Shown one piece after another: positions 32,580-52,800 of a stretch of 64,000 nt of DNA. A program made the position numbers and the translations under genes. A model generated the notes under the pieces. The model worked only from the letters and a program-made list of their open reading frames with translations, was not told where the DNA came from and made no database searches. The first letter of the stretch is position 1. The number at the start of each line of letters is the position of its first letter. Source of the stretch: Variovorax paradoxus (GTDB lineage: Bacteria; Pseudomonadota; Gammaproteobacteria; Burkholderiales; Burkholderiaceae_C); assembly GCF_030815975.1 (NCBI RefSeq), contig NZ_JAUSXL010000002.1:3026501-3090500 (forward strand), read 5' to 3'.

Positions 32580-32936
32580 TTGGAAACGGATAACGTGATG
32601 AGCGTAGCCAACGGCGAAATCTCCCGGGAAATCGGCGATATCAACCTCGCCTATATGCTGCTGGCGCAGAAGCTGGTCAAACAGGACCGTGTGGCGGCGA
32701 TGTTTCGGCTCGGCGTGAGCAGCGAACTGGCCGACATGCTGGCCGGCATGTCGCTGGCGCAGATCCTCAAGCTGGCGGCGTCGAACTTCCTGCTGTGCAG
32801 TTTCCGGCTCGACGAGCATGCCTCGATGTCGGCGGTGGTTGGCGAAGGTAAGGACACGATGCTGCAACAAGCGCATATGTCGATCCTGATGTCGGCACGA
32901 AGCCTGCAAACGCGAAAAGCAGCGGTGCCGGCATGA
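32580..32936 (+). CDS. flhD: Flagellar master regulator subunit FlhD
   Basis: Subunit of the FlhD4C2 transcriptional activator of class II flagellar operons. Family features are DINLAYMLLAQKLVKQDRVA and AAMFRLGVSSELADMLAGMS; the C-terminal helix carries the residues that contact FlhC. I favour the TTG at 32,580 because CGGAG (32,569-32,573) is spaced 6 bases before it, giving 118 residues; an ATG at 32,598 would give 112 and lacks a clear ribosome site. A TTG start on a master regulator would keep expression low. The 3' end overlaps flhC by 4 bases. Confidence 0.94.
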   Translation: METDNVMSVANGEISREIGDINLAYMLLAQKLVKQDRVAAMFRLGVSSELADMLAGMSLAQILKLAASNFLLCSFRLDEHASMSAVVGEGKDTMLQQAHMSILMSARSLQTRKAAVPA

Positions 32937-33538
32937 CGCACAAGAGCGTCCTGGGCGAGGTGCGGGAAGTGCAGCTGGCAATCCAGTTGATCCAGCTGGG
33001 CGCCCGCCTGCAGTTCCTGGAGTCCGAGGTGGGCCTGAGCCGCGAGCGGCTGATCCGGCTCTACAAGGAAATCAAGGGCGTTTCTCCGCCCAAGGGATTG
33101 CTTCCTTTTTCGACCGATTGGTATATGACGTGGCTGGCGAATATCCATTCGTCAATGTTTTACAACATGTATCAATTCATGAAAATTCATTCGGACGAAG
33201 AAAAAGTCTGGATATTGATTAAAAGCTACAAGCTTTATTTGCAGCAAATTGCGGCGCAGGACAGCGAACCAATTCTGGATTTCACGCGCGCCTACACGAT
33301 GGTGCGCTTTTTCGACAGCGACATGCTGCAGCTGAGCACCTGCTGCCGCTGTTCGGGCCAGTTCGTCGCGCATGCGCACGACCACAAGAGCGGCTACGTA
33401 TGCGTGCTCTGCCGGCCGCCGTCGCGCGCGGGCAAGGCGCGCGGCGCCAAGCGCGGCGCAGCCGGCGAAGCGGCGGCCGGCATCGAAGCCATGGGTTTTG
33501 GCGTGGAGGCGGCGCCGGGCGGCGCAGGGCTCCACTGA
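32933..33538 (+). CDS. flhC: Flagellar master regulator subunit FlhC
   Basis: DNA-binding partner of FlhD, 201 residues. Cysteines C137, C140, C157 and C160 match the zinc ligands of E. coli FlhC in number and spacing. Conserved blocks include LIRLYKEIKGVSPPKGLLPF and STDWYMTWLANIHSS. It starts within the flhD stop (ATGA). The coding stretch 33,120-33,300 is unusually AT-rich (ATT, TTT, AAA codons) for this genome. A rho-independent terminator follows. Confidence 0.98.
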   Translation: MTHKSVLGEVREVQLAIQLIQLGARLQFLESEVGLSRERLIRLYKEIKGVSPPKGLLPFSTDWYMTWLANIHSSMFYNMYQFMKIHSDEEKVWILIKSYKLYLQQIAAQDSEPILDFTRAYTMVRFFDSDMLQLSTCCRCSGQFVAHAHDHKSGYVCVLCRPPSRAGKARGAKRGAAGEAAAGIEAMGFGVEAAPGGAGLH

Positions 33539-42616: not shown

Positions 42617-42907
42617 ATGGCCTTGAAGGCATCGGACATTGTTCCCATCAGCGAAGCGCGCGCCAGGCTCACCGAACTGGCCGAAGACGTGGTGGGCAGC
42701 GGCTCGGAGAAAGTGCTGACCAAGAACGGCGCGAGCTATGTGGCACTGGTCGATGCGCGCCGGCTGGACTACTACCATGCGCTGGAGGCGGAGCACGCCA
42801 ACCTCGTGCTGGCCGAAGACGCTATCACCGGCTTGCGGCAGGCTTTGGCGGGGCGGTTCGTGCCTGACGAGGAGTTCGACCAGGCACTCGGCGTCGCGTC
42901 GGCGTGA
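42617..42907 (+). CDS. Type II antitoxin, Phd/YefM family
   Basis: 96-residue protein with the Phd/YefM N-terminal fold: IVPISEARARLTELAEDVVG followed by KVLTKNGASYVALVDARRLD. The C-terminal half is acidic and probably binds the toxin. It overlaps the next gene by 4 bases (GTGA), the usual antitoxin-toxin arrangement. It would neutralise the toxin and repress its own operon. Together they form an accessory module inserted directly after cheZ. Confidence 0.85.
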   Translation: MALKASDIVPISEARARLTELAEDVVGSGSEKVLTKNGASYVALVDARRLDYYHALEAEHANLVLAEDAITGLRQALAGRFVPDEEFDQALGVASA

Positions 42908-43296
42908 GCATTCCCGTCAACGCAAGGGTTCGGGCAGTTCCAAACTTTCTGTTGTGCCTGCAGGCTGCACGCAGCTTCATGGAGGAACAGGATGCCGCTT
43001 CCGTGTCGGTGCGCTTCAAGAAACTGCAGGCTGAATTGGTCAAGGCGCGGGCGCTTCTTGCGTTCGCCCCCACAAGCGGTCGACCTGCGCGATTCCTCGA
43101 CGCCAGGTCGGGCTGGGGCCAGTTCCAGGCCGAGCAGGCAAGGCAGCTTGCCCGGGCACTTGGCCAGCCCGAATTGCGCGAGCTGGTTCTGGCTCGCCAT
43201 GTCGTGCTGTACGCCCATTCCGAACGAGAAGTGGTGCTGCTTTCGATGCGGCACGAGCGCCAGTTGGGTTATGGCTTGCCCAAGCCATCCAGCTGA
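42904..43296 (+). CDS. Type II toxin, ParE/RelE-like
   Basis: 130-residue protein starting with GTG inside the antitoxin stop. The C-terminal part ELVLARHVVLYAHSEREVVL and LSMRHERQLGY resembles the end of ParE/RelE toxins (beta strands ending in an R-x-H-x-R region). The N-terminal half is less typical and longer than the 95-105 residues usual for the family. Whether the target is gyrase (ParE) or ribosome-bound mRNA (RelE) cannot be said from sequence. Confidence 0.7.
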   Translation: MSIPVNARVRAVPNFLLCLQAARSFMEEQDAASVSVRFKKLQAELVKARALLAFAPTSGRPARFLDARSGWGQFQAEQARQLARALGQPELRELVLARHVVLYAHSEREVVLLSMRHERQLGYGLPKPSS

Positions 43297-45641: not shown

Positions 45642-46376
45642 CTAGAGCGAATCCTTCAGCTTCGCGCGCAGCCGGCTGATCGCCTGGCTGTGCAGCTGGC
45701 ACACGCGCGACTGCGTCACTTCCAGGATCGCACCGATCTCGCGCAGGTTCAGCTCTTCCTCGTAGTAGAGGTTCAGCAGCAGCTGGTCCCGCTCGGGCAG
45801 CGCGGCAATCGCATCGACGATCTCGTGGCGAAAACCCGCTTCGAGCAGTTGCGCCAGCGGGTCGTCGCCGTCGAGCCGGCCGTCGTCGTTGCGCGCCTGC
45901 CGATCGAGCCATGGGTTTTCGGACTCGCCATCCTGCGCAAAGTCTTCCACGTAGAGCAGCTGGCAGCCCCGGATGTCCTGCAGCAGCGACTGGTAGTCGT
46001 CCAGGTCCATCTTCAGTTCCCTGGCGATCTCTCCTTCGGTGGCGGACCGGCCCAGCCGGTGTTCCAGTGCCTGGATCGCCTGTTCGACGTTGCGGGCCGA
46101 CTGGCGCAGCCCGCGCGAGCCCCAGTCGCTCGCGCGCAGTTCGTCGAGCATGGCGCCGCGGATGCGCTGGCTGGCAAAGGTTTCGAACTGCGCGCCGCGG
46201 TTGTCCTGGTAGCGCGTGGATGCATCCAGCAAGCCGATCATGCCGGCCTGGATCAGGTCGTCGAGTTCCACGCTGGCGGGCAGCTTGGCCAGCATCTGGA
46301 GCGCCATGCGGCGCACCATCGGCTGGTGCTGCTTCAGCAGGTGGGACTTCTCAATGGTTCCCTGCGCGGTGTACAC
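45642..46376 (-). CDS. fliA: Flagellar sigma factor FliA (sigma-28)
   Basis: RNA polymerase sigma factor for late flagellar and chemotaxis genes, 244 residues. Region 2 is ELDDLIQAGMIGLLDASTRY and FETFASQRIRGAMLDELRAS; region 3 is LEHRLGRSATEGEIAREL; region 4 is LLNLYYEEELNLREIGAILE with SRVCQLHSQAISRLR. It starts with GTG at 46,376 inside the end of flhG (26-base overlap). Its target boxes are visible upstream of fliC and MCP2. It is the last gene of flhBAFG-fliA. Confidence 0.97.
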   Translation of the reverse strand: MYTAQGTIEKSHLLKQHQPMVRRMALQMLAKLPASVELDDLIQAGMIGLLDASTRYQDNRGAQFETFASQRIRGAMLDELRASDWGSRGLRQSARNVEQAIQALEHRLGRSATEGEIARELKMDLDDYQSLLQDIRGCQLLYVEDFAQDGESENPWLDRQARNDDGRLDGDDPLAQLLEAGFRHEIVDAIAALPERDQLLLNLYYEEELNLREIGAILEVTQSRVCQLHSQAISRLRAKLKDSL

Positions 46377-47250
46377 GGCCGTCCCTTTCTTCCGTTTCTT
46401 CCTCTTGTGCTGCTGCTGCTGGCTCCGGCGCCAGCGCCTCGGGCCAGTGCGCCGTCCTGGCGTCCTGCGGCCGCGCCGCCGGACGCCACGGCCACTGCGC
46501 GACGGCAGCGGCGATGACGCGGAAATCCACCGCCGCGGCGCTGGCCGGGAAGGCCTCCACCACGGTCCGGGCGAGGCGCCTGGCATCGGGCAGGTGCGGG
46601 TCGGCCCGCACCCAGCCGGCCGGCTGCATCGAGACCGCCAGGTAGCGGCTGCCGGTGTCGACCAGGTTGGCCATGGTCTGGCGCGCCGCCTCGGGATCGG
46701 CGACGTTGTTGACCAAGAGGCGAAGCTGCCTGAGCGCATGCGCGTAGTGCAGCCGCTTGATGCCCGAATAGGTGGCGGTGATGGAGGCCGGGTGGGGCTG
46801 CAGCACCACCACCAGTTCGTCCGCCAGCCGTGCCAGCGGCGACAGGCTGCCGACGCTGTCGAGCGCCGCGTCGACCAGGATGACGTCGCCATCCCACAGC
46901 AGGCGCGGATCGGTGTGGTCGGGCTGGCCGCCCGGCGGTGCCGGCAGCACATGGACGCCGCACTCGGTGCGCGCGGCGGCGCCTTCGCAGGTCAGCCGCT
47001 GGGAGACGACGTCCGCCAGCGTTCCGAGCGGGTCGGCGGCCCACGCCGCGCAAGCCGAATCCGGCCCCGGCTGGTGTTCGTCGAGCAGCAGCACGTCCTT
47101 GCCCATGTGGGCCAGCGCGGCACCCAGGTTCATTGCCGCCGTGGTGGCGCCCGGCCGGTTGCCCATGCTTGCGATCGCGATGATGCGCGAAGGCGACTGC
47201 GCGAGCAGCCGCCGCAGCCCATCGGCTTGATCCGACACCAGCTTGCTCAC
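46351..47250 (-). CDS. flhG: FlhG/FleN-like MinD-family protein with degenerate P-loop
   Basis: 299 residues from GTG 47,250, overlapping flhF by 4 bases. FlhG proteins are MinD-type ATPases that limit flagellar number and stimulate FlhF. The N-terminal FlhF-activating motif DQAxxLR is intact (D7-Q-A-D-G-L-R13). The deviant Walker A is not: where KGGVGKT is expected there is GNRPGATT (30-37), so both the signature lysine and the P-loop lysine are missing. The rest of the fold remains (DVLLLDEHQPG, WDGDVILVDAALD, LRLLVNNV). ATP binding or hydrolysis is therefore doubtful. The last 40 residues are Ala/Glu-rich and run into fliA. Confidence 0.88.
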   Translation of the reverse strand: MSKLVSDQADGLRRLLAQSPSRIIAIASMGNRPGATTAAMNLGAALAHMGKDVLLLDEHQPGPDSACAAWAADPLGTLADVVSQRLTCEGAAARTECGVHVLPAPPGGQPDHTDPRLLWDGDVILVDAALDSVGSLSPLARLADELVVVLQPHPASITATYSGIKRLHYAHALRQLRLLVNNVADPEAARQTMANLVDTGSRYLAVSMQPAGWVRADPHLPDARRLARTVVEAFPASAAAVDFRVIAAAVAQWPWRPAARPQDARTAHWPEALAPEPAAAAQEEETEERDGRVHRAGNH

Positions 47251-49568
47251 GTGTCCAGCGCCTCCAGCAGGAAGAACAGCTTGCCCACGCCGGCATAAAG
47301 CACGTTGCCCGAAACCGGACGGCCGTTGCGTGCCGGCCTTCCGGTGAGCTGCGCCAGCAGCGCGCGGGTGCGCACAGCCCAGTCGCCGTCGGCCTGCAGC
47401 AGGCGCCACACGGTGGTGGTCACCTGGCCTGCAATGAGCAGGCGCTTCATCATGTGCGGATCGCCCGCCTCGCCGAGCCCGCCCAGCACGCCGAGGCCCT
47501 GGCGCAGCAGGCGCAGGCAGGGCTCGGCCTCGGCGGCCCAGCACTGCCATTGCGCGAGCCGCTGCAGCGGGATGTCGCGGCCGATGTTGGTGAGCGCGTA
47601 ACTCTGCGCCAGGACCTTGTGGCTGCGCGCATCGGTCACGCGCGTCACCACGCAGCGCAGGCCGGGCGGGCCGCCATCGGTGCGCAGTGTCACCTGGGCC
47701 TGGGCCACCGATTGCAGCGCGGCGCGGCCCTTGAAGACCACGGCGCGCGGATCGTCGAAACTGAAGTCCAGGCCGGTCAGCGTGGCGTACTCGCCGGTGC
47801 GCGCGTCGCTCACCGCCGTGGAGCCCGGCGCACGCGCCATCCATTGCTGGCGCTGCACCTGCCACTGCAGCATGAGCTCGGCCGCGGGCAGCCGGGGCAG
47901 CATGTGCACCACGGCCTTGCCGAAGTCCTGCTGGCGCAGCCACTGCACCTGCCGCACGCCCGGCTTGCGCGTGGGGTCGGTGGCGTTGCGGGTCGCGGCG
48001 GTGGAGAGCCACTGGTTGGGCGCCGCGAGCGGCAGTCCGCCGCGGTCGGACAGGAGCAGGCTGCCCTGGCATTGGTAGGCGTCGCTGCCTTCGTCGGACT
48101 TGAGCCCGACCTGGCCGCTGAGCGCCAGCACATGGGTGTCGCAGCTGGCGGCGACTTCGCTCGCGGCATGCGCCATGAGCGCCTGCAGCACCGCCTTGTG
48201 GCCGACGTCCTCGTCGGCGGCCTGCCGCCAGAGCGCGCGCGCCTGCTCGAAGCCGAGCGGTGCGGCCGCGAGTGCCGACGCCGCGGCGGCCACCTCCTGC
48301 GCGTCGTGCGCCATGGCGCGGATCAGCTGCCGGTATTGCAGCCGCTGGCGTTCGGCCTCCGCATGGGCCGCGGAAGCCTCGGCATTCGCCGACCCGTCCT
48401 GCAGGTCGCCTTCGCCGGGAACGAACAGCGCGCTGCGGCTGTTGGCCTGGAACGCGCTGTCCACCAGCTGGGCGCGGTCGGCCCGCATCAGGTTCTCGGG
48501 CACCTTCTGGCCGCTCGAGACATAGTGCACCGGCAGGCGGTGGCGGATCACGGTGTCGATCAGCGCGCCCGGATGCGTGGCCTCGTCGACCTTGGTGAAG
48601 ATGCAGCCCGCGAGATCGCTGCCGCTGCCATGCCGGTAGGCGTGCACCACTTCGTTGAGCGTGTCGCCGTGGCTCGTGGCGTTGAGCAGCAGCAGCCGCT
48701 TCACGGGCCGCTGGCTGCTGCAGAGCATCGCGATCTGGTCGGACACGGCACGGTCGCGCTGGCTCATGCCCACGGTATCGATCAGCACCATGTGCTTGTC
48801 GCGCAGGTCCTGCAGCACCAGGTGCAGGTCGGCCGCGTCCTTCACGGCGTAGACCGGCACATTGAGGATCTGGCCGTAGATGCGCAGCTGCTCGTAGGCG
48901 CCGATGCGGTAGCTGTCGGTGGTGACCAGTGCCAGCTTGTCGGCGCCGAAGCGCATCACGCAGCGCGCCGCGAGCTTGGCCGTGGTGGTGGTCTTGCCGA
49001 CGCCGGTGGGCCCCATCAGCGCGTAGACGCCGCCCTGCGCGAGCAGTGCGTCCTCGTCCTCGTGCACCGGCAGCGTGCGGATCAGTTCCGAGCGCACGAA
49101 GGCCATGCCCTGGGCATAGCTCTGGCCCGTGGGCAGGTGCTCCAGCATGGCCTTCGAGAGGCGGGCGCTGAAGCCGGCGCCGAGCAGGGTGCGCAGCAGG
49201 CGGCCGCGCATCGGGTCGCGCCGCTGCTTCTCGTTCCAGGCCACGCCGGCCAGCTGTTCCTCGATCATGCAGCGCATCGAATGGAGTTCGCCGAGCACGC
49301 TGTCTGCCGCGAGCGGAGCCGCAGCGGAAACGGGCGCAGGAACGGCTGCAGCCGCCGGCAAGGCCTGCGGCGCAGCGGCTGCGCTCGCACGCACTTCTTC
49401 CACGTCTTCCTGCACCATGGCGACGATCTCCACGCCGTCGGCGGTCGCGCGGTTGGTCAGCACGATGGCTTCGTCGCCGAGCGCCTGGCGCGCCAGGCGC
49501 AGCGCTTCCCGGCTGGTGGGCGCGACGAACTTGCGCGCGCTGGTGCGGACGTCTGTCGGGATGTTCAA
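47247..49568 (-). CDS. flhF: SRP-type GTPase FlhF with long C-terminal extension
   Basis: 773 residues. FlhF is an SRP-family GTPase that places flagella. The B domain (MNIPTDVRTSARKFVAPTSR and a linker) is followed by the NG GTPase: P-loop GPTGVGKTTTTAKLA (186-200), DTVGMSQRD (264-272), TKVDEA (325-330). All look functional. The normal protein would end near residue 390, but here about 380 further residues follow, with QYRQLIRAMAHDAQEVAAAA near 412 and a folded-looking region to the end (GNVLYAGVGKLFFLLEALDT). I do not recognise this part. It lies between flhA and flhG. Confidence 0.93.
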   Translation of the reverse strand: MNIPTDVRTSARKFVAPTSREALRLARQALGDEAIVLTNRATADGVEIVAMVQEDVEEVRASAAAAPQALPAAAAVPAPVSAAAPLAADSVLGELHSMRCMIEEQLAGVAWNEKQRRDPMRGRLLRTLLGAGFSARLSKAMLEHLPTGQSYAQGMAFVRSELIRTLPVHEDEDALLAQGGVYALMGPTGVGKTTTTAKLAARCVMRFGADKLALVTTDSYRIGAYEQLRIYGQILNVPVYAVKDAADLHLVLQDLRDKHMVLIDTVGMSQRDRAVSDQIAMLCSSQRPVKRLLLLNATSHGDTLNEVVHAYRHGSGSDLAGCIFTKVDEATHPGALIDTVIRHRLPVHYVSSGQKVPENLMRADRAQLVDSAFQANSRSALFVPGEGDLQDGSANAEASAAHAEAERQRLQYRQLIRAMAHDAQEVAAAASALAAAPLGFEQARALWRQAADEDVGHKAVLQALMAHAASEVAASCDTHVLALSGQVGLKSDEGSDAYQCQGSLLLSDRGGLPLAAPNQWLSTAATRNATDPTRKPGVRQVQWLRQQDFGKAVVHMLPRLPAAELMLQWQVQRQQWMARAPGSTAVSDARTGEYATLTGLDFSFDDPRAVVFKGRAALQSVAQAQVTLRTDGGPPGLRCVVTRVTDARSHKVLAQSYALTNIGRDIPLQRLAQWQCWAAEAEPCLRLLRQGLGVLGGLGEAGDPHMMKRLLIAGQVTTTVWRLLQADGDWAVRTRALLAQLTGRPARNGRPVSGNVLYAGVGKLFFLLEALDT

Positions 49569-51658
49569 ACTCTTCCTCCGATGGTGGCGGTGATCTTGAT
49601 GTGGCGGGTGTCAGGAATCTCCGCATGCGAGAGAACCTTGAGCTGGCGGAAGCTGCGGCGCAGGAAGCGCGAGAGCAGCACGCGCAGCGAATGCTGGACC
49701 ACCAGCACCGGCGCCAGGCCCAGCTGCTCCTGGCGCGCGATGGCCGCGCGGGTCTGCTGCATGAGGCTGTTGGCCAGGCCCGGCTCGATGCCGTTGTTGT
49801 TGGCGAGCGCCTGCTGCAGCACGCCGTCGAGCGCGCCGTCCAGGCCGATCACCTGCAGTTCGGAATCGCCCGGGAACAGCTGCTGCGTGATCGCGCGGCC
49901 GAGCGCCAGGCGCGTGAGCGAGGTGAGCTCGGCCGCGTCCTTGACGGTGGGCGCGTGCTCGGCCATCACGTCGAGGATGGTGCGCATGTCGCGGATCGGC
50001 ACCTCTTCGTCGAGCAGGTTCTGCAGCACCTTGTGCAGCGTGCTCAGCGAGATGATCTTGGGCACCAGGTCCTCCGTGAGCTTGGGCGCGGTCTTGCCGA
50101 TCTGGTCGAGCAGCTGCTGCACTTCCTGGCGGCCCAGCAACTCGGCGGCGTGGGTCTGGATCAGGTGGTTCAGGTGCGTGGCCATGACCGTGCATGCATC
50201 GACCACCGTGTAGCCGAGCACCTGCGCTTCCTGGCGCAGGCTGGCGTCGATCCACACGGCGGGCAGGTGGAACGCCGGGTCCTGCGTCGGCGTGCCGGGC
50301 AGGGTGCCGCTCACCTGGCCGGGGTTGATGGCCATCCACTGGTTGGGGAAGGCCTCGCCGCGGCCGATCTCGACACCCTTGAGGCTGATCACGTAGGTGT
50401 TGGGCGGGATCTCCAGGTTGTCGCGGATATGGACCACCGGCGCCAGGAAGCCGATCTCCTGGGCCACCTTCTTGCGGATGCTCTTGATGCGGCCCAGCAG
50501 TTCGCCGTTCTGGGTCTGGTCCACCAGCGGGATCAGCCGGTAGCCGACCTCCATGCCGAGCGGGTCGACCAGCGCCACGTCGTCCCATGTCGCCTCGGCC
50601 GCTTCGGCCGATGGCATCGTTGCGGCCTGGGCCGCGGCGGCCTGCTCGGCCGTGGCCTGCGGCGTGCGCTTGAGCATGCGCCGGCCCAGCCACGCCAGGC
50701 TGCCCGCGATCAGCAGGAAGGCCAGGTTCGGCATGCCGGGAATCATCCCCATCAGGCCGATGAGGCCGGCCGTGAGAAACAGCACCTGCGGATTGGAGAA
50801 CAGCTGGCCGGTCAACTGCCGGCCCACGTCTTCGTCGGTGGTGACGCGCGAGACGATCACGCCCGCGGCGGTCGAGATCACCAGCGCCGGAATCTGCGCC
50901 ACCAGGCCGTCGCCGATGGCCAGCAGCGTGTAGGTCGTGCCGGCGGTGCCGAAGTCCAGCCCGTGCTGGAGCATGCCGACCACCAGGCCGCCGATGATGT
51001 TGATCACCATGATCAGCAGGCCGGCAATCGCGTCGCCGCGCACGAATTTGCTGGCGCCGTCCATCGAACCGTAGAAGTCGGCTTCCTGCGCGACTTCCTG
51101 GCGGCGCTTGCGCGCCACGTCCTCGCCGATCAGGCCGGCGTTCAGGTCGGCGTCGATCGCCATCTGCTTGCCGGGCATCGCATCGAGCATGAAGCGCGCG
51201 CCGACCTCGGCGATGCGCCCCGCGCCCTTGGTGATCACCATGAAGTTGATCAGCACCAGGATGATGAACACCATCACGCCCACCGCGAAGTTGCCGCCCA
51301 CCAGGAAGTGGCCGAAGGCCTCGATCACCTTGCCCGCCGCATCCGGCCCGGTGTGGCCGTGCATCAGCACCACGCGCGTGGAAGCCACGTTGAGCGACAG
51401 GCGCAGCAGCGTGGAGAACAGCAGCACGGCTGGGAAGGCCGCGAAGTCCAGCGCCTTCATGGTGTACATGCTCACCAGCAGCACCATCACCGACATCGCG
51501 ATGTTGAAGGTGAACAGCAGGTCGAGCAGGAAGGGCGGCAGCGGCAGCACCATCATGCTCAGGATCAGCACGATCAGGATGGGGCCCGCGAGCCCCTTCC
51601 ACTGGGTGCCGGAGAACAGCTGCGCCTGCAGGCGCGTCAGGGTGGCCATGGCGTTCAT
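49565..51658 (-). CDS. flhA: Flagellar export gate platform protein FlhA
   Basis: 697 residues, the usual length. An N-terminal membrane domain with about eight TM helices (ILIVLILSMMVLPLPPFLLD and LLFTFNIAMSVMVLLVSMYT) precedes the FHIPEP signature region (AEVGARFMLDAMPGKQMAID). The large cytoplasmic domain forms the nonameric ring that receives chaperone-substrate complexes. The ATG at 51,658 overlaps the flhB stop; the longer frame upstream shadows flhB. The 3' end overlaps flhF by 4 bases. Confidence 0.98.
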   Translation of the reverse strand: MNAMATLTRLQAQLFSGTQWKGLAGPILIVLILSMMVLPLPPFLLDLLFTFNIAMSVMVLLVSMYTMKALDFAAFPAVLLFSTLLRLSLNVASTRVVLMHGHTGPDAAGKVIEAFGHFLVGGNFAVGVMVFIILVLINFMVITKGAGRIAEVGARFMLDAMPGKQMAIDADLNAGLIGEDVARKRRQEVAQEADFYGSMDGASKFVRGDAIAGLLIMVINIIGGLVVGMLQHGLDFGTAGTTYTLLAIGDGLVAQIPALVISTAAGVIVSRVTTDEDVGRQLTGQLFSNPQVLFLTAGLIGLMGMIPGMPNLAFLLIAGSLAWLGRRMLKRTPQATAEQAAAAQAATMPSAEAAEATWDDVALVDPLGMEVGYRLIPLVDQTQNGELLGRIKSIRKKVAQEIGFLAPVVHIRDNLEIPPNTYVISLKGVEIGRGEAFPNQWMAINPGQVSGTLPGTPTQDPAFHLPAVWIDASLRQEAQVLGYTVVDACTVMATHLNHLIQTHAAELLGRQEVQQLLDQIGKTAPKLTEDLVPKIISLSTLHKVLQNLLDEEVPIRDMRTILDVMAEHAPTVKDAAELTSLTRLALGRAITQQLFPGDSELQVIGLDGALDGVLQQALANNNGIEPGLANSLMQQTRAAIARQEQLGLAPVLVVQHSLRVLLSRFLRRSFRQLKVLSHAEIPDTRHIKITATIGGRV

Positions 51659-52800
51659 GCGGCGGCCTTCGGCGAGTATTCGAGCGATTCGGGGATCGGC
51701 AGGTCGGCCGGCGTGCGCGGCGCATCGCCGCCTTCGCTGTGCCAGCGCTTGAGCTGGTAGACCCAGGCCAATACCTCGGCCACCGCGGTGTAGAGGCCGG
51801 CCGGGATCTCGTCGCCGAGCCGGGTGTGCTTGAACAGCGCGCGCGTGAGCGGCGGCGCCTCCAGGATCGGAACCTTGTTCTCGCGCGCGATCTCGCGGAT
51901 GCGCTCGGCCATCAGGTCGCTTCCCTTGGCCACCACGCGCGGCGCGCGCATGTCCTGGTCCACATACTTGAGCGCCACCGCGAAGTGCGTGGGGTTGGTC
52001 ACCACGATGTCGGCCTTCGGCACCTCGGACATCATCCGCCGGCGCGCCATCTGCTGCTGCTGGCGGCGGATCTGCGCCTTGACGTGCGGATCGCCTTCGC
52101 TCTCCTTGTGCTCCTGGCGCAGGTCTTCGCGCGACATGCGCAGCTTGCGGTGGTAGCTCCACAGCTGGTAGGGAACGTCCACCAGCGCCACCAGGAACAG
52201 CGCGGAGGCAATCAGTGCGCAGTTGTGCGCCACCAGCACGATCATCTGCGGCAGCGCGGTGCGCTCCGACTGCGCCATCAGCGCCGAGACCTCGTCCACG
52301 TTGCCCATGATCACCAGCCAGGCCACGCCGCCGATCAGCAGCGACTTGGCCAGCGCCTTGAACAGCTCCGACAGGGCCTGCGCGGAAAACATGCGGCCGA
52401 CGCCGGCGACCGGATCGAGCTTGCTGAACTTGGGCGCGAGGGCCTTGGCCGAGAGCAGCCAGCCGCCGAGCATCAGCGGCGCCGCCACGGCGGCGACCAG
52501 CATCATGCCGAACAGCGGCGCGAGCGCGAGCAGCGCCTGCTGGCCGATGAGACCGGCGCGCGCCAGCATGTGGGAAGGATCGAACGCCGTGGCGCGGTCG
52601 AAGTGCAGGCCCTGGGCCAGCGCGCCGCGCAGCGTGGCGCCGAGCGAGTCCGCGGTGAGCCACAGGCCGGCAACGGCGGTGCCCAGCAGCACGAAGGTCG
52701 CCAGTTCGCGCGACCGGGCCACGTCCCCTTCCTCGCGCGCCTTTTCGAGGCGCTGCGGTGAGGCGGGTTCGGTTTTTTCGAGGTCGCTTTCTTCAGCCAT
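51655..52800 (-). CDS. flhB: Flagellar export switch protein FlhB
   Basis: 381 residues. The N-terminal membrane domain has four hydrophobic helices, the first at about 33-52 (LATFVLLGTAVAGLWLTADS). The cytoplasmic domain carries the autocleavage motif N269-P270-T271-H272, the same numbering as in Salmonella FlhB, so specificity switching should work. The C-terminal part is the template for the small paralogue at 32,101. It heads the flhBAFG-fliA operon; no sigma-28 box is seen in the 125 bases upstream. Confidence 0.98.
   Translation of the reverse strand: MAEESDLEKTEPASPQRLEKAREEGDVARSRELATFVLLGTAVAGLWLTADSLGATLRGALAQGLHFDRATAFDPSHMLARAGLIGQQALLALAPLFGMMLVAAVAAPLMLGGWLLSAKALAPKFSKLDPVAGVGRMFSAQALSELFKALAKSLLIGGVAWLVIMGNVDEVSALMAQSERTALPQMIVLVAHNCALIASALFLVALVDVPYQLWSYHRKLRMSREDLRQEHKESEGDPHVKAQIRRQQQQMARRRMMSEVPKADIVVTNPTHFAVALKYVDQDMRAPRVVAKGSDLMAERIREIARENKVPILEAPPLTRALFKHTRLGDEIPAGLYTAVAEVLAWVYQLKRWHSEGGDAPRTPADLPIPESLEYSPKAAA

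Follow-up and report, generated by a model that had tools for sequence, protein, structure and literature searches.

An FlhG with lost ATP-site residues and a retained FlhF-activating helix in Variovorax paradoxus and other Burkholderiales

FlhG normally relies on ATP in helping bacteria to count and position their flagella. It has been described as a switch that joins an ATP-driven membrane cycle to the activation of the GTPase FlhF, and the roles of its two halves have been hard to separate. Here we analyze an flhG gene of Variovorax paradoxus whose product has lost the residues of the ATP site and has kept the helix motif that activates FlhF. The gene lies in a stretch of 64,000 nucleotides (contig NZ_JAUSXL010000002.1, positions 3,026,501 to 3,090,500; below, the window, to which all coordinates refer).

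Passages of PMC12826062 describe FlhG as an ATP-dependent dimer that is bound to the membrane through a C-terminal helix, and the glutamine of its DQAxxLR motif as a co-catalyst of FlhF that stands in for a cytidine of the signal recognition particle (SRP) RNA. This RNA, the activator of Ffh-FtsY, is an analogue of FlhG in that it, too, contributes a single catalytic group to a GTPase dimer of the SRP type (passages of PMC12826062), but FlhG is a protein instead of an RNA and there is no family kinship. According to parts of PMC12327844, replacement of Q8 by alanine in Bacillus subtilis FlhG resembles deletion of flhG, and the authors infer that FlhG serves above all to stimulate FlhF; the same parts report that Geobacillus FlhG does not bind ATP as variant K36A and does not hydrolyze it as variant D60A. 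Walker A mutants of Vibrio alginolyticus lose polar localization and are hyperflagellated, as stated in an excerpt of PMC7226244. The canonical FlhG/YlxH proteins of Bacillus and Geobacillus (4RZ2, 4RZ3) carry KGGVGKS and D60, dimerize in an ATP-dependent manner and possess the membrane helix. The window FlhG has the predicted MinD fold and the N-terminal DQAxxLR helix in common with them, whereas its ATP-site residues are replaced and a membrane helix is not recognizable. It likewise shares the fold of the SIMIBI (SRP, MinD and BioD) class with MinD of the Min system but differs from it in that the P-loop lysines are gone and, again, no membrane helix can be recognized. FleN of Pseudomonas (5J1J, 7EJW, 8P53) binds ATP and antagonizes FleQ, whereas the genome of the window encodes FlhC; its sole match to PF06490 (FleQ) is weak (27.6 bits).

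ATP site and activating helix of the window FlhG

The gene and the parts of its product that matter here are the following.

46351..47250, minus strand: flhG, GTG start, 299 amino acids; predicted MinD-fold protein with the ATP-site residues lost
47212..47232, minus strand: DQADGLR (residues 7-13), motif of the helix that activates FlhF, in which Gln8 is the catalytic residue
47140..47169, minus strand: P-loop relic SMGNRPGATT, residues 28-37; G30 and A35 replace the lysines, G34 and T36 are kept
47074..47082, minus strand: D57-E58-H59, with histidine in place of the catalytic aspartate (D60 of Geobacillus FlhG)
46354..46485, minus strand: C-terminal tail, residues 256-299, lacking the membrane-helix pattern; mostly low model confidence, with a short helix at 261-266

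An earlier note on this DNA had claimed that both P-loop lysines are gone, residues 30-37 reading GNRPGATT, and that DQAxxLR is perfect at residues 7-13. Both claims are borne out: alignment with Geobacillus FlhG sets G30 and A35 against the two lysines, no deviant Walker A motif KGGxGK[TS] is present, and the N-terminal enhancer motif of FlhG reads DQADGLR. The catalytic aspartate is replaced as well (H59), leaving neither the Walker A lysines nor the aspartate that mark an ATP-hydrolyzing MinD/ParA protein, and the scores of the Pfam families CbiA and AAA_31 fall below their cut-offs. Columns were numbered by our own count against the chains of 4RZ2 and 4RZ3, in which the first lysine is Geobacillus residue 31, the second is K36 and the LDxD column is D60; chain 4RZ3 has alanine at the second aspartate of LDxD. 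The earlier note had also allowed for a start or frame error that conceals a true P-loop. This was rejected, because the flhG start shares 4 bases with the flhF stop and no KGGxGK occurs in frame upstream of it.

The structure model, a step that the same note had proposed, shows a predicted MinD/SIMIBI fold (mean predicted local distance difference test score, pLDDT, 85.1), and its best matches are structures of FleN and FlhG. A helix is predicted at residues 6-16, at a confidence below that of the core. Neither the loose nor the strict sequence pattern that we used for the membrane-targeting helix recognizes one in the window FlhG.

Close relatives agree with these readings. Among the 120 best of 486 homologues, most of them named Variovorax, the nearest named relatives belong to Variovorax paradoxus and V. 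beijingensis, and none of these 120 has a lysine at either P-loop position; the second position is occupied by A (77), V (24), G (13), T (5) or S (1). DQAxxLR is intact in all 116 of them that include the N-terminus. Four named Variovorax genomes (L060-L063) encode the same P-loop segment, in which a single position is either N or Q. The ratio of nonsynonymous to synonymous substitution rates (Ka/Ks) of flhG is 0.15-0.19 against four Variovorax genomes, and the Variovorax FlhG is evidently under purifying selection. That flhG is a decaying, functionless gene adrift could be argued from relatives in which the gene was not found or is reduced and from 23 loci of the window's family with an eroded DQAxxLR (see below). 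The low Ka/Ks, the invariance of the helix and of many other columns across 73 homologues, and the intact reading frame and operon position all speak against decay, which we regard as hardly credible.

Distribution across the Burkholderiales

We anchored the survey of the order on flhF to avoid reliance on FlhG similarity. At E 1e-20, FlhF was found in 196 of 300 genomes of the order and in 143 of 200 genomes of the window's family. The 187 loci examined, one per genome, were picked by us from the best rows of the flhF and FlhG searches and are a non-random sample; 12 of them were left unclassified (L068, L082, L089, L112, L142-L145, L169, L170, L174 and L212). The 175 classified FlhGs, whose lysine classes were assigned by alignment, come from 34 families and 105 genera, with 59 rows from the window's family. 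The earlier note had proposed such an alignment, and the loss turned out to be widespread in the sampled order: 139 of the 175 have lost the P-loop, 25 retain only the second lysine and 11 have both lysines. In the window FlhG it extends to the catalytic aspartate.

DQAxxLR follows a different course. It is intact in 152 of the 175, including all 11 with both lysines, all 25 with the second lysine and 116 of the 139 without a P-loop, and in all 116 classified FlhGs outside the window's family. Its glutamine is present in 175/175, a figure to be read with the search pattern in mind, which itself demanded Gln; every tabled match had a Gln-bearing motif except L174, one genome in which flhG is divided between two reading frames. 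Column entropy among the 139 P-loop-less FlhGs is 0 bits at L12 and, with the same caveat about the search pattern, at Q8, 0.4 bits at D7, A9 and G11, and 3.4-3.5 bits at both lysines and the catalytic aspartate. The retention of the helix beside a varying ATP site in these proteins goes beyond chance. A profile-based search (best 120 of 2528) added 52 proteins, including ones named Caballeronia, Paraburkholderia, Paraherbaspirillum and Herminiimonas; all 52 have DQAxxLR and none has GK[TS] within the P-loop window. For control, a canonical FlhG (L033) was used as a class-level query and matched 96 of 185 genomes at E 1e-30. Among its 30 best matches, P-loop and membrane-helix pattern were found in 30/30 and the strict DQAxxLR in 26/30, although this control leans towards the P-loop because the query carries one.

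Of the 11 full P-loops, seven belong to three genera within the window's family (L032-L038), in genomes without an FlhC match. The L033 FlhG shares 64% identity with those of two genomes from a different gammaproteobacterial family (L222, L223), which suggests transfer. In L032-L038 the canonical FlhG adjoins FlhF. On a FastTree phylogeny from which the columns of the motif and the P-loop had been excluded, the second-lysine state changes 8 times, with at least 5 changes forced by starred branches; these changes are undirected, gain and loss being indistinguishable, and long branches meet in places. As far as sequences can tell, loss of the ATP site is stepwise across the order, its state changing repeatedly. 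A report of ATP-site loss in FlhG of the Burkholderiales was not found in the open-access literature searched, subscription papers lying outside this search.

P-loop loss tends to go along with loss of the C-terminal membrane-helix pattern. The loose pattern, our own and drawn up after the tails had been seen, is present in 36/36 FlhGs with and 27/139 without a P-loop (Fisher 2e-20). A stricter and earlier pattern was found in 8/11 FlhGs with both lysines, 1/25 with the second lysine and 3/139 without a P-loop. Of five independent pairs on the tree, on average 2.0 pointed in the same direction and 0 in the opposite one, too few for a test.

Truncated and mirror-image cases extend this series. 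A mini-FlhG is encoded in L169 and L170, two loci from a single genus (about 231-552 in locus coordinates). It has 106 residues from motif to stop; DQAEGLRRLLG is joined directly to the C-terminal half, and the nucleotide-binding half is absent. Conversely, FlhG in five loci from three genera (L039, L040, L041, L052, L057) has KGG[VA]GKT and LDAD and no DQAxxLR. The adjoining FlhF lacks the motif II aspartate and deviates from the consensus GxTG[VA]GKTT of G1, with GKT kept, in 5/5 of these loci, while motif II and G1 consensus are intact in all 46 loci that bear the helix and whose sequence covers this part of FlhF; a strict DTxG match is absent in five of the 46, and four more helix-bearing loci, whose flank ended too early, were left out of the count. 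Where the whole helix is lost, FlhF is degenerate; the ATP site varies independently of this. Pairs with a degenerate FlhF are missed by the FlhF search at E 1e-20, and the five mirror loci, which came from FlhG searches, give no estimate of frequency.

Other genera of the window's family (L045-L051, L053-L056, L058, L059) encode a helix-less ATPase that is MinD/FlhG-like and carries KGGVGKT. It is encoded apart from flhF in the five loci inspected, and by eye a GGDEF protein (L047, L058) or a CheR-like protein (L047, L050, L053) lies nearby.

A probable ATP-independent co-catalyst and its alternatives

Since the ATP-site residues are gone, the membrane helix is not recognizable and DQAxxLR is kept by selection, the FlhG described here is most likely an ATP-independent, cytosolic co-catalyst of FlhF. 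We put the probability that it is a pseudo-ATPase acting in this way on the FlhF GTPase at about 0.74. The MinD/FlhG fold would be kept as a scaffold, the residues that bind and hydrolyze ATP having been lost and, with them, presumably ATP-driven dimerization. The helix would dock on the FlhF GTP dimer, where Gln8 would complete the active site; this supply of Gln8 would end the FlhF cycle and so switch FlhF off. The protein would remain in the cytosol and would no longer be a membrane-cycling counter of the MinD type. Absence of ATP binding, absence of membrane cycling and activity on FlhF are what we infer from sequence. The losses, the retained helix and their distribution in the sampled order can be read from the alignments themselves, as can purifying selection and the intact FlhF motifs. 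The earlier note had envisaged a non-ATPase FlhG that only stimulates FlhF: its account of the altered ATP site and intact helix stands, stimulation of FlhF would be a probable though perhaps not the only role, and a different mode of flagellar control may exist in vivo. The description was correct yet narrower than the facts, which take in stepwise loss across the order, the membrane-helix trend and the mirror loci.

Several observations weigh against this interpretation. The DQAxxLR consensus is eroded in 23 of the 52 P-loop-less FlhGs of the window's family, the only family with such erosion, though Gln remains in each; FlhF motifs are intact in 14/14 of these loci that were checked, and an eroded motif beside an intact FlhF argues against strict coupling of the helix to the FlhF site. 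FlhG was not found between flhF and fliA in three loci (L089, L112, L212), nor in four others (L142-L145) within the ~3.4 kb that follow the flhF match, and the activator seems dispensable in these seven. The Vibrio Walker A mutant K31A is described in an excerpt of PMC7226244 as non-functional and failing to localize. As to a cause of the loss, FlhC (strong matches, E below 1e-50) is present in 85 of 134 tested P-loop-less genomes versus 7 of 36 with a P-loop (Fisher p 3e-6, across rows), but the association finds no support in independent pairs on the tree, and FlhDC as the driver of P-loop loss is not supported for this reason. Finally, residues around the former ATP site are conserved in 121 Variovorax-type sequences (G34 in 119, T36 in 115, D57 in 120, E58 in 120 and H59 in 111), and the pocket may retain a ligand-binding or a structural role.

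This conservation, above 91% at each position, is the starting point for the idea that the remodeled pocket binds ATP, ADP or another ligand without a lysine and thereby gates access of the helix to FlhF. The predicted MinD fold would fit such a ligand switch, as would the GxGCTS- or GxGATS-like loop kept by many of the 52 added homologues (named Caballeronia, Paraherbaspirillum). The positions are not kept order-wide, however, with G in 67/135 and T in 44/139 P-loop-less rows; the lysine on which ATP binding by Geobacillus FlhG depends is missing, and the two mini-FlhG loci lack the nucleotide half altogether. We consider a ligand switch unlikely. Part of PMC3228812 mentions the deviant Walker A of Campylobacter jejuni FlhG and unpublished trials in which ATPase activity was absent in vitro, so a negative ATPase assay alone would not be decisive.

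A second FlhG was not found in the window genome; a MinD with a MinE-like neighbor and an Mrp-type ATPase were. FlhG might pair with such a canonical MinD-type protein, for example MinD itself, and contribute the helix alone, and the helix-less KGG ATPases of other genera in the family could be cited in favor. The first lysine of MinD-type proteins reaches across the dimer. This lysine is likewise lost in the window FlhG, and there is no sign of a partnership in the sequences. The L058 ATPase as query gave ten matches in the window genome, the best being MinD at 36% identity. In the eight of these ten that were made loci, DQAxxLR, where inspected, occurs in the window FlhG only. An ATPase supplied in trans is very improbable in our judgment.

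The Burkholderiales offer a graded series that runs from canonical FlhG through proteins without one lysine, without the ATP-site residues or without the nucleotide half to loci in which the gene was not found; the mirror case belongs to it as well. A natural separation of FlhG functions in the order appears real and widespread. If our interpretation is true, much of this large order would place its flagella without an FlhG ATPase, and whether stimulation of FlhF is the central task of FlhG would become directly testable in laboratory strains.

FleQ was also considered as a lost partner of FlhG. PF06490 matches are too weak and scattered (best 38.5 bits) to call FleQ present.

Neighboring genes and the FlhF extension

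In the window, flhG directly follows flhF and precedes fliA, and flhA and flhB lie upstream.

47247..49568, minus strand: flhF, 773 amino acids; SRP54-type GTPase domain at residues 181-372, motifs intact
47250..48386, minus strand: FlhF residues 395-773, C-terminal domain with a predicted Tn5/IS4-transposase-like fold
45642..46376, minus strand: fliA (sigma-28), downstream of flhG with ~26 bases of overlap; start placed by eye
49565..51712, minus strand: flhA, start provisional
51655..52800, minus strand: flhB
32933..33538, plus strand: flhC, FlhDC-type master regulator

The intact GTPase motifs were read in the L064 copy of the window's FlhF protein. FlhF residues 395-773 show the overall fold of Tn5/IS4 transposases in the model, and no Pfam or PDB (Protein Data Bank) sequence match was seen for them. 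Regarding the DDE triad, none of 7 sequences has Asp in the first strand (model residues 85-96), about where the first catalytic Asp of Tn5 falls, an approximate comparison by position in the model. The open-access literature searched yielded no report of a transposase-like domain in FlhF. The domain occurs at the flhF locus of eight genomes (one weakly), four with a P-loop-less FlhG and four in which no adjoining FlhG was found, and four named Variovorax genomes agree. It is conceivable, if improbable, that the FlhF-FlhG switch was rebuilt, with FlhG as ATP-free co-catalyst and a captured Tn5-transposase-like domain of FlhF taking over the spatial or counting input of the FlhG ATPase. The distribution is a lead and not a test of this idea, because the base rate of P-loop loss is high.

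Among non-flagellar genes between cheZ and fliA, two small overlapping genes on the plus strand (42617-43296) resemble by eye an antitoxin-toxin pair of the Phd/YefM-ParE type.
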